From Hyphomicrobiales bacterium (GTDB taxonomy: Bacteria; Pseudomonadota; Alphaproteobacteria; Rhizobiales; MH13), in contig JAEPOK010000002.1 in NCBI GenBank assembly GCA_017642935.1, positions 372,001 through 436,000 of the forward strand: a stretch of DNA of 64,000 bases. Direction: 5' to 3'. Positions 14,501 through 58,554 of the stretch are shown in pieces. The first letter of the stretch is position 1. The number at the start of each line of letters is the position of its first letter. The notes under the pieces are model-generated. The model was given only the letters and a program-made list of their open reading frames with translations. It was not told where the DNA came from and searched no databases. The position numbers were made by a program, and so were the translations under genes.

Positions 14501-14622
14501 CGCTCCGTTCCTCGCTGGACGCTCGGAACAACCGGCATTCCTCTGGCTCTGTTCCTCGCTGGACGCTCGGAACAACCGGCATTCCTCTGGCTCTGTTCCT
14601 CGCTAGACGCTCGGAACAACTG
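14501..14622. repeat. Tandem array of 44-bp palindromic repeat units
   Basis: Units begin at 14507, 14551 and 14595, an exact 44-bp period; the third is truncated after about 26 bp. Each unit has GTTCC and GGAAC arms separated by 13 nt, then AACCGG, CATTCCTCTG and GCTCTG leading into the next unit. Units one and two are nearly identical, and the third has an A for G in the loop. The unit shares its parts with the repeats at 23.4 kb and 34.9 kb. Confidence 0.9.
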
Positions 14623-21607: not shown

Positions 21608-22546
21608 ATGCCCGAACTGCCCGAAGTCGAAACGGTGCGCCGTGGTCTGGCCCCCGCCTTGGAGGGCGCGAGGATCATCCGCGCTGATGTCCGCCGGCCG
21701 GATCTTCGCTTCCCGTTTCCCGATGGACTGCAAACCCTCCTTGAAGGCGCCCGGATTACCGCGCTGACGCGGCGGGCGAAATATCTACTGATTGAGCTCG
21801 ACAAGGGCACGACGCTGATCGCGCATTTGGGGATGTCAGGTAGCTACCGGGTGGAGACACACTCAGATCACACGCTCCGTTCCCAAGAGGAACGACCGCT
21901 AAGTGATCAACAACCTTTCACCCCAGGCCAGTTCCATTTTTCCCGCTCGGCGCTTGGGGCGCATGACCATCTGGTGCTTGACGTTGAGGGCGGCGCGGCT
22001 GGTCCAGCGCAGGTGATCTACAATGATCCGCGGCGCTTTGGTTTTGTGCTCGCGGCCCTGACGGCACAGCTGCACGAACACCCTTTTCTGGCCGATCTCG
22101 GGCCGGAACCGCTGGGCAATGCGCTCACCCCAGAGCATCTGGCGGCGCGATTTGCCGGTAAGCGGGCGCCGTTAAAGGCAGCGCTGCTCGACCAGAAGAA
22201 CATTGCTGGGCTTGGCAACATCTATGTTTGCGAGGCGCTGTCGCGCGCGCGGCTCTCGCCAAAGAGGCTTGCCGGAACTTTGGTCACCAAAAAGGGTTTA
22301 CCGACGCAAAGGCTGGTCACGCTGACGGGTGTTATCCGTGATGTCATCGGCGAAGCGATCGAGGCGGGAGGGTCGAGTTTGCGCGATCACAAACAAACCG
22401 ACGGCTCTTTGGGCTATTTCCAACACCGGTTCTCGGTTTATGACCGCGAGCACGCCGCCTGCCCGACCGAAGGCTGCCGCGGCACCGTCAAACGCATTGT
22501 TCAATCCGGGCGCTCCACTTTCTACTGTCCCACCTGCCAACGCTGA
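21608..22546 (+). CDS. mutM: Formamidopyrimidine-DNA glycosylase with an apparent in-frame palindromic insert
   Basis: A 312-residue base-excision repair enzyme that removes 8-oxoguanine and formamidopyrimidines and nicks the abasic site. The catalytic N terminus Met-Pro-Glu-Leu-Pro-Glu-Val-Glu is intact. Also present are a Lys-Tyr-Leu-Leu segment, His-Leu-Gly-Met-Ser-Gly-Ser, Tyr-Asn-Asp-Pro-Arg-Arg-Phe-Gly, Asn-Ile-Tyr-Val-Cys-Glu-Ala-Leu and a C-terminal zinc finger of the Cys-x4-Cys...Cys-x2-Cys type. The protein is roughly 15-20 residues longer than usual. The extra length falls after Gly-Ser-Tyr-Arg-Val-Glu, at residues about 84-104, exactly where the DNA carries a palindrome (21866-21908). 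Activity is probably kept, because all catalytic motifs remain. Confidence 0.96.
21866..21908. repeat. Palindromic element inside mutM
   Basis: Nested inverted repeats: outer arms GATCAC (21866-21871) and GTGATC (21903-21908); inner arms GTTCC (21879-21883) and GGAAC (21889-21893) around CAAGA. The inner part, CGCTCCGTTCC followed by GGAACGACCGCT, matches the flanks of the intergenic repeat units at 14.5 kb and 23.4 kb. It encodes mutM residues 87-101 in frame. Confidence 0.7.
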
Positions 22547-23355: not shown

Positions 23356-23390
23356 GCGCTAGCCACACACACTCAGCGCCGCCCCCCATG

Positions 23391-23467
23391 CGGTTGGGCC
23401 GCAGGCCCAGAACACCCATGAGCGGAACGACCGGTTTTCTTTGGCTCTGTTCCTGCGGAACGACCGC
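23391..23467. repeat. Palindromic repeat cluster between enoyl-CoA hydratase and rpsT
   Basis: Two complete repeat cores in opposite orientation. The first, reversed, has GGGCC-GCA-GGCCC at 23396-23408 flanked by CGGTT and AGAAC. The second, forward, has GCTCT then GTTCC-TGC-GGAAC at 23449-23461 followed by GACCGCT. A half unit, GGAACGACCGG with TTTTCTTTG, lies between them (23423-23443). The two cores have different stem bases but the same trinucleotide loop. Confidence 0.85.
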
Positions 23468-33597: not shown

Positions 33598-34834
33598 TCG
33601 GAAGACCGTTGCCGTTATTGGCTCCGGCCCGGCGGGCCTCATGGCGGCGGACGTTCTGTCTGACGCTAACGTTAAGGTCATTATTTGCGAAGCCAAGCCG
33701 TCGGTTGGGCGCAAGTTCCTGATGGCCGGAAAATCCGGTCTCAACCTCACCAAAGACGAACCGGACGCAGCCTTTTTGCGCGGTTTCTACGAGGCCGCGC
33801 CGCAAATGACGCCGATGCTGGCCGGCATGGGTCCGGGCGCCGTGAAACGGTTTGCCGAGGGCTTGGGGGAGGAGGTGTTCACCGGGTCCTCCGGACGCGT
33901 GTTCCCCAAGGCGATGAAAGCCTCGCCTATGCTGCGCGCTTGGCTTGGCCGACTGGCTGACAAGGACGTTGAGGTCCGCACCCGCTGGCGATGGACGGGT
34001 TTCGAGCCAAGTGGTCGCGCTGAGAAGCACAGAACGGGCGAGCACCAACACGATCTGCGATTTGAAACACCCGATGGCCCGCAGACGATTGCGCCCGATG
34101 CCACGATCCTGGCCCTTGGTGGGGCCAGCTGGTCGCGGCTTGGCTCAGATGGCGCGTGGACCGACCTGATGGATGAAAAGGGTGTTGCTGTCAGGCCTTT
34201 CAAGCCTGCCAATATGGGCCTGTCGGTCGCCTGGTCGGCGCTAATGGCCGCGCATTTTGGTGCGCCAGTGAAGGGCGTGCGCCTCAAGGCTGGCGAGGAC
34301 TCCCATCTTGGCGAGTTCGTCATTTCCAGCTACGGCCTGGAAGGCAGCGGGATTTACGCTGTCTCAAGGGCGGTGCGCGAGGGCGCAGCGCTGGTGATCG
34401 ATCTTTTGCCATCTCTTTCTCTGTTTCAAGCGACCGAAAGGCTCAGCAAACCGCGTGGCAAGGACTCAATGGCCAACCATTTGCGCAAGGCGCTCAAACT
34501 CAGCCCGGTTAAGCGCGCCCTGCTGATGGAGTTTGGGCGCCCTCTACCAGCCGATCCAGGCGATATAGCCCGCCTTATCAAGGGCTTGCCTGTCACCCAT
34601 CAGGGACCGCGCCCCTTGGATGAGGCGATCTCCGTGGCGGGCGGCGTTGCGTGGGATGCCGTGGATGAGGGCCTCATGTTGCGCGATCTGCCGGGCGTAT
34701 TCTGCGCAGGGGAAATGCTTGACTGGGAAGCGCCCACGGGCGGCTATCTGATCACTGGGTGCCTCGCCACCGGCAAGTGGGCGGGCGAACACACGCTGAA
34801 GCAGTTGTCGCTCGCGACAGAGCGCAGCGCTTAA
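33587..34834 (+). CDS. HI0933/TIGR03862-type flavoprotein
   Basis: A 415-residue FAD-dependent oxidoreductase. The dinucleotide loop Val-Ile-Gly-Ser-Gly-Pro-Ala-Gly-Leu (residues about 9-17), the Gly-Arg-Lys-Phe-Leu-Met-Ala-Gly-Lys-Ser-Gly-Leu-Asn-Leu-Thr stretch and the C-terminal Gly-Gly-Tyr-Leu-Ile-Thr-Gly-Cys-Leu-Ala-Thr-Gly are diagnostic of this BaiN-like family. The physiological reaction is not established. It is the last gene of the seven-gene block before gyrB; the palindromic repeat array follows 37 bp later. Confidence 0.88.
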   Translation: MATDRKTVAVIGSGPAGLMAADVLSDANVKVIICEAKPSVGRKFLMAGKSGLNLTKDEPDAAFLRGFYEAAPQMTPMLAGMGPGAVKRFAEGLGEEVFTGSSGRVFPKAMKASPMLRAWLGRLADKDVEVRTRWRWTGFEPSGRAEKHRTGEHQHDLRFETPDGPQTIAPDATILALGGASWSRLGSDGAWTDLMDEKGVAVRPFKPANMGLSVAWSALMAAHFGAPVKGVRLKAGEDSHLGEFVISSYGLEGSGIYAVSRAVREGAALVIDLLPSLSLFQATERLSKPRGKDSMANHLRKALKLSPVKRALLMEFGRPLPADPGDIARLIKGLPVTHQGPRPLDEAISVAGGVAWDAVDEGLMLRDLPGVFCAGEMLDWEAPTGGYLITGCLATGKWAGEHTLKQLSLATERSA

Positions 34835-34871
34835 AAACGACCAGGCTGAAGCGGTTGTCCGCATAGCGGTT

Positions 34872-34990
34872 GCTCTGGGCCGGAGCCTCCAGCTCTGGGC
34901 CTGCCGCCCAACCAGCATTCACTCTTGCTCTGGGCCTGCTGACAACCCAACACCTATTCTTGCTCTGGGCCTGCGGCCCAACCGCAGGGA
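34872..34990. repeat. Tandem array of 35-bp palindromic repeat units
   Basis: GCTCTGGGC starts at 34872, 34892, 34927 and 34962; the last three are exactly 35 bp apart and the first is a partial unit. The best copy has GGGCC-TGC-GGCCC at 34967-34979, extended by T/A, then AACC. The other copies are degraded: one has a mismatch in the second arm, one has lost it. The tail AACCAGCATTCACTCTT matches the tail of the 14.5-kb units. Confidence 0.88.
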
Positions 34991-35033
34991 ACTGGATTTC
35001 TGCCCGATTATCCCCATATGAAGCTGTGCATGA

Positions 35034-38455
<3,422 letters not shown>

Positions 38456-38573: not shown

Positions 38574-39578
38574 ATGCAGCACAGACAGCTGGGGCGATCG
38601 GGCCTCAAAATCACGCCGGTTACGCTCGGGACAATGGAAGTTGGCGGCAAAGTCGATGAGAGCACTGCTGCCGATCTGGTTGCCATGGCGGTGGAGCGCG
38701 GGATCAACCTTGTCGATACGGCCAATGTATATGCTGGAGGGCGCAGCGAAGAGATCCTTGGTCGGCTCATCAAACCGCATCGTGGCAAGCTGCTGGTCTC
38801 AACCAAGTTTTCCGTACCGCTGTCTGATGATCCCAAAAGCGGTGGAACCAGCCGCCATGCGGTGATCGCAAACTGTGAGGCGAGCCTGAAACGGCTCGGC
38901 ACAGACCATATTGATCTCTACTTCATCCACCGGCCATTTCCGCAAACGCCGATTGAGGAAACGTTGCGGGCACTGGAAGATCTAATGCGCGCCGGCAAGG
39001 TGCGGGCAATCGGATCTTCAAGCTTCGCCAGCTGGCAGGTCCTGGAAGCGCTATGGTGCGCCGATGTGCGTCATCTGGTTCGGCTCACCGCCGAGCAGAC
39101 GCCTTACCACCTGCTAGACCGGCGTGTGGAACGGGAGTTGGTCCCGGCCGCGCGTAGCCATGGCCTGGGCTTGATGATCTGGTCGCCGCTCGCTGGGGGC
39201 TTGTTGACGGGCAAATATGTGGGACGGGACGCGGAGAACGCTCGGCTGCAAAAAGCTGATACGGCCTGGGGCGCGAAGCACTTTGCCATTGGCGTCACCG
39301 AAACGGTCAGCAAGTTGAAATCCATTGCCGAAGAGGCCGGTCAGAGCCTGACGGCGATGTCGCTTGCCTGGACGTTGGCGCAACCGGGCGTCACGTCACT
39401 TGTGCTCGGCCCGCGCGATCGCCAGCAATTTGGCGAACAGTTGGACGCGCTTGAGGTGAACCTCAGCACCGATCAGTTGCATGCAATCGACAAGGTCGTG
39501 CCCTTCGGTGGTGTGACCGTGCCTTATTATCTGGACGATGCATTCGCCGATTTCAGCCCCAATCGACACAGCTGGTAG
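38574..39578 (+). CDS. Aldo/keto reductase (first of a pair)
   Basis: A 334-residue NADPH-dependent TIM-barrel reductase. The catalytic tetrad is visible as Asp in Leu-Val-Asp-Thr-Ala, Tyr in Asn-Val-Tyr-Ala-Gly-Gly, Lys in Val-Ser-Thr-Lys-Phe and His in Phe-Ile-His-Arg-Pro. The C-terminal cofactor-binding part has Leu-Val-Leu-Gly-Pro-Arg. It resembles YajO/YhdN-type reductases acting on aldehydes, but the substrate cannot be read. It is divergent from the LysR gene, with a second reductase 55 bp downstream. Confidence 0.9.
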   Translation: MQHRQLGRSGLKITPVTLGTMEVGGKVDESTAADLVAMAVERGINLVDTANVYAGGRSEEILGRLIKPHRGKLLVSTKFSVPLSDDPKSGGTSRHAVIANCEASLKRLGTDHIDLYFIHRPFPQTPIEETLRALEDLMRAGKVRAIGSSSFASWQVLEALWCADVRHLVRLTAEQTPYHLLDRRVERELVPAARSHGLGLMIWSPLAGGLLTGKYVGRDAENARLQKADTAWGAKHFAIGVTETVSKLKSIAEEAGQSLTAMSLAWTLAQPGVTSLVLGPRDRQQFGEQLDALEVNLSTDQLHAIDKVVPFGGVTVPYYLDDAFADFSPNRHSW

Positions 39579-39633
39579 TGTCGGCCAATCGATCGTTCTG
39601 TTGGAACGGAGCCAGCGAAAAGGAACTGGAAAG

Positions 39634-57906: not shown

Positions 57907-58554
57907 ATGCAGCTGAAAGGCTTTGGCGAACGGCTGCTGATCGCAAGCCACAATCGCGGCAAGATCGACGAATTGCGGGCCCTGCTGGAGCCGATCGGCC
58001 TACCGGTTACGTCCTCGGCGGACCTTGAGCTCACCGACCCGGAAGAAACGGGAACGACGTTCGAGGAGAACGCGCTGCTTAAGGCGCGTGCCGGGCATGA
58101 AGCGACCGGTCTTGCCAGCCTGTCGGATGATTCCGGCCTTTGCATCGACGCGCTGGGCGGTGACCCTGGTATCTACACCGCGCGGTGGGCCGGGCCGGAG
58201 AAAGACTTCTCCATGGCCATGCGCACGGTCGAGGAAAAGCTCCAAGCCGCCGGCGCGACCTCTTCTGATCAGAGACGGGCAAAGTTCGTTGCCGTGCTTG
58301 GCCTCATCCGCACCGATAGCTCCGAAGAAACATTTCGTGGCGAGGTAGAGGGCACGCTGGTCTGGCCGCCAAGAGGCGACCAGGGCTTTGGCTATGACCC
58401 GATTTTTCAGCCGGATGGTTTCGACATCACGTTTGGTGAGATGGACGCCGATACCAAGCACGGCTGGGTTCCCGGGGAGCAATCCGGGCTGTCGCACCGA
58501 GCGCGGGCGTTTGAGAAACTGTTCAATGCCATCGTCAGCGCGGGTCCGGCGTGA
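57907..58554 (+). CDS. rdgB: XTP/dITP pyrophosphatase
   Basis: A 215-residue house-cleaning NTP pyrophosphatase that removes dITP and XTP. The N-terminal Ile-Ala-Ser-His-Asn-Arg-Gly-Lys, the metal region [11 protein letters not shown] and Ser-Asp-Asp-Ser-Gly-Leu, and the C-terminal Gly-Phe-Gly-Tyr-Asp-Pro-Ile-Phe are intact. Ser-His-Arg-Ala closes the core. Its stop overlaps the hemW GTG start (GTGA). Confidence 0.97.

Follow-up and report, generated by a model that had tools for sequence, protein, structure and literature searches.

A short palindrome that recurs upstream of gyrB in a Hyphomicrobiales bacterium, and at many other places in its genome, is probably a non-autonomous, REP-like mobile element. 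Its consensus is GCTC-[YGnnCC-TNC-GGnnCR]-ACCGC, with constant feet and with inner stem pairs that change in step; on the lower strand the feet read GCGGT and GAGC. Together with a linker of ~10 nt, often pyrimidine-rich, the hairpin makes a unit of ~35 nt. The copies are dispersed and their stems change in step, a row of them is present at gyrB in one genome and absent there in its congeners, some copies lie in frame within genes, unit-sized copies are nested within other hairpins, and units follow one another head to tail in rows. In the broad sense the element is a REP, a short palindrome in many copies (43 and 57 in two genomes) that lie mostly between genes.

Genomes and models

The stretch analyzed, 64 kb in length and called the window below, belongs to the genome of the Hyphomicrobiales bacterium (G000; 3.74 Mb, 98.8% complete). 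We compared it with three congeners, namely G001 (Devosiaceae bacterium MH13), G002 (a Cohaesibacteraceae MAG, 78% complete) and G003, which are distant (in the gyrB region their longer matched pieces share ~64-82% DNA identity), and with G004 from the same family. More remote carriers include G446 (Omnitrophica UBA2337), G443 (a Bacillales MAG), G445 (an alphaproteobacterial MAG) and G448 (a Candidatus Symbiobacter MAG); by their coordinates, G445 and G448 are the genomes G367 and G398 of the class-wide set. Two covariance models were used, R1 built on 11 short-loop copies and R2 on 38 copies from six lineages. Counts obtained with R2 include the copies used in building it, and its E-values are rough. 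The counts may be too low, since no more than 150 candidates were scored per genome and the model misses copies whose inner stem is very different.

Copies in the window

The motif GCTCTGGGCC starts at 34872, 34892, 34927 and 34962 ahead of gyrB. The copies and the genes beside them are as follows.

34962..34985 (+): perfect palindromic copy, GCTC-TGGGCC-tgc-GGCCCA-ACCGC, scoring 48.4 bits with R1
34927..34948 (+): degenerate copy, right arm lost
34892..34915 (+): copy with one stem pair broken
34872..34881 (+): left half only of a copy (GCTCTGGGCC), 20 nt before the next start
34801..34823 (-): copy with another stem, GCTC-TGTCGC-ga-GCGACA-ACTGC, where the upstream flavoprotein gene ends, within its final codons
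33587..34834 (+): flavoprotein gene of the TIGR03862 family; at its 3' end it departs from the congeners where the extra stretch starts
35055..37610 (+): gyrB open reading frame
23444..23467 (+): copy with a GTTCC/GGAAC stem, upstream of rpsT (S20), sixth pair T-G
23390..23413 (-): inverted partner copy, GGGCC-TGC-GGCCC (GGGCC/GGCCC stem)
21874..21899 (+): in-frame copy in mutM, GCTC-CGTTCC-caaga-GGAACG-ACCGC
14502..14535 (+): first copy of the row at 14.5 kb, with a 13-nt loop; it follows the 3' end of ahcY
14546..14579 (+): second copy of that row, 13-nt loop
14590..14623 (+): third copy of that row, 13-nt loop

An earlier, sequence-only reading had described tandem 35-bp units at the four gyrB starts. 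All four starts are real, but the 35-nt spacing holds for the last three, and the unit at 34872 is a half unit offset by 20 nt. The core GGGCC-TGC-GGCCC that it singled out is perfect at 34962, and GTTCC-TGC-GGAAC at 23.4 kb is as described, to which we add the inverted partner at 23390-23413. The copies that it placed at 14.5 kb are there also, but they number three and have 13-nt loops. Its list missed those at 34801-34823 and in mutM. At 34801-34823 the alignment of the three congeners is gapped. The true start of gyrB is possibly an in-frame TTG at 35151.

If a site may have no more than one tag mismatch and must have five pairs or more, the window holds seven, whereas 20 Markov-1 simulations averaged 0.55 and never exceeded 2. 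The site at 34927-34985 is compound, its right arm being also that of the copy at 34962, so that six are separate; the count omits 23444 (T-G pair), 14502 (which has a C-A pair) and the degenerate copies.

Two further features of the window deserve mention. A possible decayed copy, GCTC-CGTTC-caaca-GAACG-ATCGA, lies at 39589-39612 (-) just behind the open reading frame 38574-39578; at its level of mismatch ~5 chance sites are expected in the window. The gyrB leader contains an inverted repeat at 35064-35086, CTTTGGT-GGTATAAAA-ACCAAAG, which in G002 reads CTTTGAT...ATCAAAG with both arms changed to match, and which is partial in G001 and G003. As a site of gyrB regulation this inverted repeat is a more plausible candidate than the row.

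Constant feet and a variable stem

What stays constant is the two feet, GCTC and ACCGC, together with the first pairs of the stem; the rest is nearly always palindromic and otherwise free. The stem starts with TG or CG and usually has 6 bp, and the inner stems found are GG/CC, TT/AA, TG/CA, GT/AC, CG/CG, AG/CT and GA/TC. With partner columns left free at the selection of copies, pairs 5-19, 7-17 and 8-16 are Watson-Crick in 32, 27 and 33 of the 34 copies of G000 (one of them a probable chance match within a gene, at 58239), where the maxima of 1000 shuffles were 27, 20 and 27. The corresponding numbers for 65 copies of the congeners are 62, 58 and 57, with shuffle maxima of 46, 44 and 41. Since the copies in a row are related, these counts, and those of loops and wobble pairs given below, are not independent. 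The dispersed family with stem changes matched on both arms, as the sequence-only reading had it, is borne out by 43 matches in the genome and by three pairs far above shuffles. The A or G of (A/G)ACC, which had been taken for part of a constant flank, turns out to belong to the stem, as the partner of the final base of GCTC[T/C]. This foot-of-stem pair is T-A or C-G in 32/34 copies of G000 and 62/65 of the three congeners; the copy at 23444, with T opposite G, is an exception.

The loop usually has 3 nt and is TNC in 82 of the 99 copies of G000 and its congeners, corresponding to GNA on the lower strand; the inverted form GNA was found in 0/99. GNA triloops are unusually stable in single-stranded DNA. 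Longer loops and stems exist. The apical part ranges from 3 to 19 nt in G445, where by eye it is often itself palindromic, and reaches 26 nt in G448; extended stems like these occur in G003 also. The inner stem is still more variable among 21 matches of the Omnitrophica genome, aligned by fitting to the model, and their outermost foot pair is G-C in 12 and C-G in 9. Where a stem change is one-sided, it is wobble-compatible on the lower strand in 20 cases and on the upper in 7, Omnitrophica included.

It had been suggested that such covariation is the mark of selection for a hairpin. We cannot follow this, for the changes are seen among copies at different sites, and covariation of that kind is alone no proof of selection. 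Three pairs of copies are orthologous. The stem is the same in two of them (the right rpsT copy of G000 and G002, and the uvrB copy of G000 and G003), and in the third, the left rpsT copy, G002 has two unmatched changes. Template switching is described as creating and repairing stems, and thereby fixing them without selection (PMC8794818). Moreover, most GTAG families are reported to have stem variants with alternative complementary residues (PMC3733652), so the covariation is not special to the GCTC/ACCGC element.

Distribution across genomes

Model R1 gives 23 matches in G000 at E<=0.01 and 55 at E<=10. Applied to 61 relatives under stricter filters, it matches 4, which are G000 and its three congeners. 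R2 at E<=0.05 finds 43 copies in G000, 1 in G001, 12 in G002, 57 in G003 and 0 in G004, and further afield 58 in G446, 32 in G445, 5 in G448, 3 each in G447 and G443, and 0 in G449; a single match in G451 lies, by eye, within a coding stretch. A covariance-model search of the genome and its relatives, which had been proposed from the sequence alone, therefore finds copies beyond the sites first noted, and their stems co-vary. Class-wide, 3/385 genomes match (G000, G367 and G398), the same three whether a plain pattern or R2 at E<=1e-3 is used. The family is rare beyond the genus, occurring in 2/384 other alphaproteobacteria, and it is frequent in one Omnitrophica genome.

The plain pattern matches 20 stretches among 84,980 species, several of which look like chance matches inside genes. 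Against a control with the pattern reversed it scores 16 vs 0 in G446 and 53 vs 0 in G003. Both the plain-pattern and the model searches required the feet, and the constancy of the feet between genomes is therefore partly a selection effect.

We also looked for a phage or plasmid vehicle. Two IMG/VR contigs hold one copy each, with the same local sequence, and IMG/VR contains no exact tandem pair. A row of 13 units in G003 has nothing similar among plasmids or phages in a BLAST search with the low-complexity filter on. On these results we rejected such a vehicle.

Some local arrangements may be recorded here. In the Bacillales MAG a different hairpin (GCTAAGTT...AACTTAGAC) comes closely behind the copies, two of which, one poorer, are 35 nt apart. 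A phage-like region of G003 (C1:78000-92000; DNA methylase and repressor by eye) has 12 listed copies, 7 of them inside called genes; a sliding-clamp match there is weak and below cut-off.

Rows, filled and empty sites, and nesting

Neighboring copies are mostly arranged head to tail at a regular distance. At the loci compared, the six same-strand spacings below 70 nt between 3-nt-loop copies of G000, a set that omits the 14.5-kb row with its longer loops, are 35, 35, 35, 36, 39 and 39 nt, and in G001-G003 37 of the 44 same-strand spacings below 70 nt fall in the range 32-37. In all, these loci have 50 same-strand neighbors within 70 nt vs 9 opposite-strand neighbors within 100 nt. The longest row, in G003, comprises 13 near-identical units of 37 nt. 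Its linkers too are near-identical, not unlike one another as spacers are, and a CRISPR array was rejected on this ground.

At gyrB the stretch between matched flanks is ~130-180 nt longer in G000 than in G001-G003. The row is absent at the orthologous site in all three, where the model finds no copy, and sequence comparison would have it a gain in G000. A regulatory hairpin specific to gyrB was rejected because the row is missing in the three congeners and copies are dispersed. The mutM of G000 has a 15-residue insertion relative to G001 and G002 that contains the in-frame copy; G003 differs in the same stretch. An ImuB-like protein (Pfam IMS, Y-family polymerase) has 136 residues between conserved anchors in G003 and 47 in G001, the greater length being due to seven units, each exactly 36 nt long. 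G000 and G002 have in common the pair upstream of rpsT, which was not seen in G001 or G003.

Copies are also found within other hairpins. Three are nested in the loop of another copy with an intact stem (G000 C2:708640, and contigs C1 and C13 of G003). In G000 a 35-nt unit lies in the loop of a CGTC REP 62 nt behind uvrB, while G001 has an uninterrupted CGTC REP 68 nt behind uvrB; the difference, 35 nt, is the common period. Filled and empty orthologous sites are thus found at gyrB, in the CGTC-REP loop at uvrB, in mutM and in the ImuB-like gene. For these sites and for the nested copies gain is the simpler reading, although with congeners so distant losses are possible. Among the points against mobility are the single copy in G001, the fact that slippage is enough to make rows, and the lack of any recent clean insertion in these comparisons.

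An alternative is a passive hairpin, an old insert that multiplied through replication slippage and whose arms were kept matched by template switching, no mobilizing enzyme and no selection for function being involved. In its favor are rows of near-identical units such as the 13 x 37 nt of G003, the reported ability of template switching to create and repair stems (PMC8794818), and the left rpsT copy of G002, which has decayed on one arm. Against it speak unit-sized copies lodged in the loops of other hairpins, and copies at positions where congeners have none. The feet recur in far separated genomes above the reversed control (16 vs 0 in G446), although these genomes were found by their feet, and the TNC loop is never inverted to GNA, as switching across the loop would do. 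We consider such a passive origin quite unlikely.

Behind uvrB, G000 (C1:256000-270000) has a SIR2/nSTAND Avs5-like gene, with copies of the element between accessory genes, and G003 (C2:42000-55000) has SnoaL, HD-domain and DarG-like genes separated by copies. This hints, and no more, that rows of the element border gene cassettes which can be swapped at uvrB.

Gene context and predicted folding

The sequence-only reading had proposed a modular intergenic element similar in concept to REPs. Modular and REP-like it is, but not strictly intergenic, since copies occur in mutM, in the end of the flavoprotein gene and in the Y-family polymerase gene. Using a home-made gene caller, 31 of 33 copies of G000 were placed between genes, of which 11 are converging, 15 co-directional and 5 diverging, and copies adjoin genes in both orientations. 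Further copies lie at uvrB and next to dnaE2. The uvrB stop codon is directly abutted by a hairpin in G000 and G003, and the element is absent there in G001 and G002.

For the folding of 36-nt pieces, we counted the consensus stem when at least 5/6 of its pairs were present in the minimum-energy fold. As DNA, it is the minimum for 17/34 copies of G000 on either strand, 39/65 (upper) and 46/65 (lower) of the congeners, and 11/14 and 12/14 in Omnitrophica. As RNA, the numbers are 23 and 26 of 34 in G000, 44 and 49 of 65 in the congeners, and 12/14 and 11/14 in Omnitrophica. The copies at 34962 and 23444 are predicted as DNA to form a competing hairpin, TGCGG...CCGCA, and as RNA the copy at 34962 is predicted to fold into a two-helix form. 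Folding z-scores of intact units range from -0.9 to -2.3. Energy calculations appear to support the hairpin only in part, and these results have lowered our confidence in a mobile palindrome.

We asked also about a helix outside the hairpin. The number of outer pairs at positions 3-8 is not above shuffles in G000, G001-G003 or Omnitrophica. The run length of an outer helix, with G-U allowed, was reached by 1/500 shuffles in Omnitrophica, 7/500 in G000 and 135/500 in G001-G003. It is above shuffles in Omnitrophica, weakly so in G000 and not in G001-G003; an outer helix beyond the feet was rejected.

Two kinds of known RNA signal were sought. The scan of 34700-35250 found no hairpin with a T-run within the gyrB row; the sole terminator-like site, 35081-35097 (-), is outside it, and an intrinsic terminator at gyrB was rejected. 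In the window Rfam gives 0 matches at gathering score. At E<=10 there are five matches in 34780-35060, all below gathering score, and at eight other loci nine matches, of which only a tRNA beside one copy is above it, and a known RNA family was rejected.

Might the element nevertheless be a functional RNA hairpin, transcribed at gene ends, whose stem and internal loop (UC/ACC, read from the opposite strand as GGU/GA) are kept by selection as a signal for protein binding or stability, the mobile look being secondary? The hairpin directly after the uvrB stop codon in two genomes would fit this. So would the two-helix RNA form at 34962, a consensus stem that in G000-G003 is the minimum-energy fold of more copies as RNA than as DNA, the run length reached by only 1/500 Omnitrophica shuffles, and the in-step change of the outer foot pair in the same genome (G-C 12, C-G 9; n=21, in the alignment fitted to the model). 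The excess of wobble-compatible changes on the lower strand (20 vs 7) makes this the more likely strand for any RNA. However, past the two foot pairs none of the three groups has more outer pairs than the shuffles give, copies stand beside genes in both orientations and are present in coding sequence, and the gyrB row has neither a terminator-like site nor an Rfam match at gathering score. Nor are copies kept at the orthologous gyrB sites, or at uvrB in G001 and G002. We therefore think an RNA function of this kind unlikely, and continue with the mobile palindrome.

Relation to known REPs

Most REPs are sorted into two superfamilies, GTAG and CGTC, in a published classification (PMC3733652). 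GTAG REPs resemble our element in having a tag and a hairpin, stem sub-families with alternative complementary residues and frequent clusters, as described for them (PMC3733652, PMC8266576). They differ in the tag itself, GTAG or GTGG, and in TnpA-REP/RAYT. The sequence-only reading had suggested looking for a linked RAYT-type transposase; a search limited to PF01797 (RAYT/Y1 transposase) found it in 0/9 carrier genomes (G000, G001-G003, G443 and G445-G448), where the control was positive in 5/14 known genomes. Alphaproteobacteria are reported to carry none or few RAYT-type genes (PMC6006769).

The CGTC REPs, which include RPE-4 and RPE-6 of Rickettsia conorii, are closer. According to their description (PMC3733652) they share a tag, a short palindrome with many stem variants, a mainly alphaproteobacterial occurrence with patchy representation of other phyla, copies in replication and repair genes, and the lack of a dedicated transposase. 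Our element could then be a distant branch of that superfamily and not a new tag class, the more so as GCTC and CGTC end in the same two letters and ACC resembles the CCA tail. The details given in the same source (PMC3733652) are nevertheless different throughout. The CGTC tag (TGTC, CCTC) and CCA tail stand against GCTC and ACC(GC); a stem of 8-9 bp starting AT and a loop of 4-5 nt against a stem usually of 6 bp starting YG and a loop usually of 3; and predominant HH dimers, with HT negligible, against head-to-tail rows. In addition, CGTC REPs with CCA were found separately in the same genomes as the GCTC/ACCGC element. Membership in the CGTC superfamily is in our view quite unlikely.

Rickettsia palindromic elements and intragenic REPs also insert in genes, as the element does in mutM and the ImuB-like gene; they are of other sequence, and the ImuB-like insert is a row of seven 36-nt units. 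IS1397 is an IS element that targets REPs, whereas here the inserted piece is a ~35-nt palindrome without a gene. REP hairpins have been reported as insertion targets for IS elements (PMC1525189), and some GTAG and CGTC dimers are said to lie inside other palindromes (PMC3733652).

The element fails the tested defining features of both superfamilies, and a third tag class is the best reading. The titles and beginnings of abstracts searched gave no earlier description of it, though an earlier mention, for example in a published figure of consensus sequences, is possible.

A possible mechanism and its significance

On a folded single strand, TnpA-REP is described as reading both the tag and an unpaired feature (PMC8266576), and this strand-specific recognition in GTAG REPs is our model. 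By analogy with TnpA-REP and its tag and bulge, a protein might recognize the feet and the folded single strand of the present element. A putative enzyme would join unit-sized single strands beside an existing hairpin, or into its loop, most likely where replication leaves a strand exposed. Rows could then grow or shrink by slippage or recombination, and the gyrB row would be one landing site and not a dedicated gyrB switch. In its fullest form, which we put forward as tentative, the proposal is of a third superfamily of tagged palindromes (GCTC/ACCGC), moved as a folded single strand of ~35 nt by a non-Y1 enzyme. Such an enzyme would prefer hairpin loops, with the result that units nest and build head-to-tail rows, and the elements would pass between phyla (Hyphomicrobiales, another alphaproteobacterium, Omnitrophica and a Bacillales MAG).

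REP insertions have been reported in genes such as uvrB and dnaE2 (PMC3733652). The copies in mutM, in the ImuB-like gene, next to dnaE2 and at uvrB repeat this published and unexplained tendency of REPs toward replication and repair genes. The rule that the feet are constant and the stem is free but nearly always palindromic is testable. A third tag class without Y1 transposases, together with nested unit-sized insertions, would provide a handle on what moves those REPs that lack RAYT.
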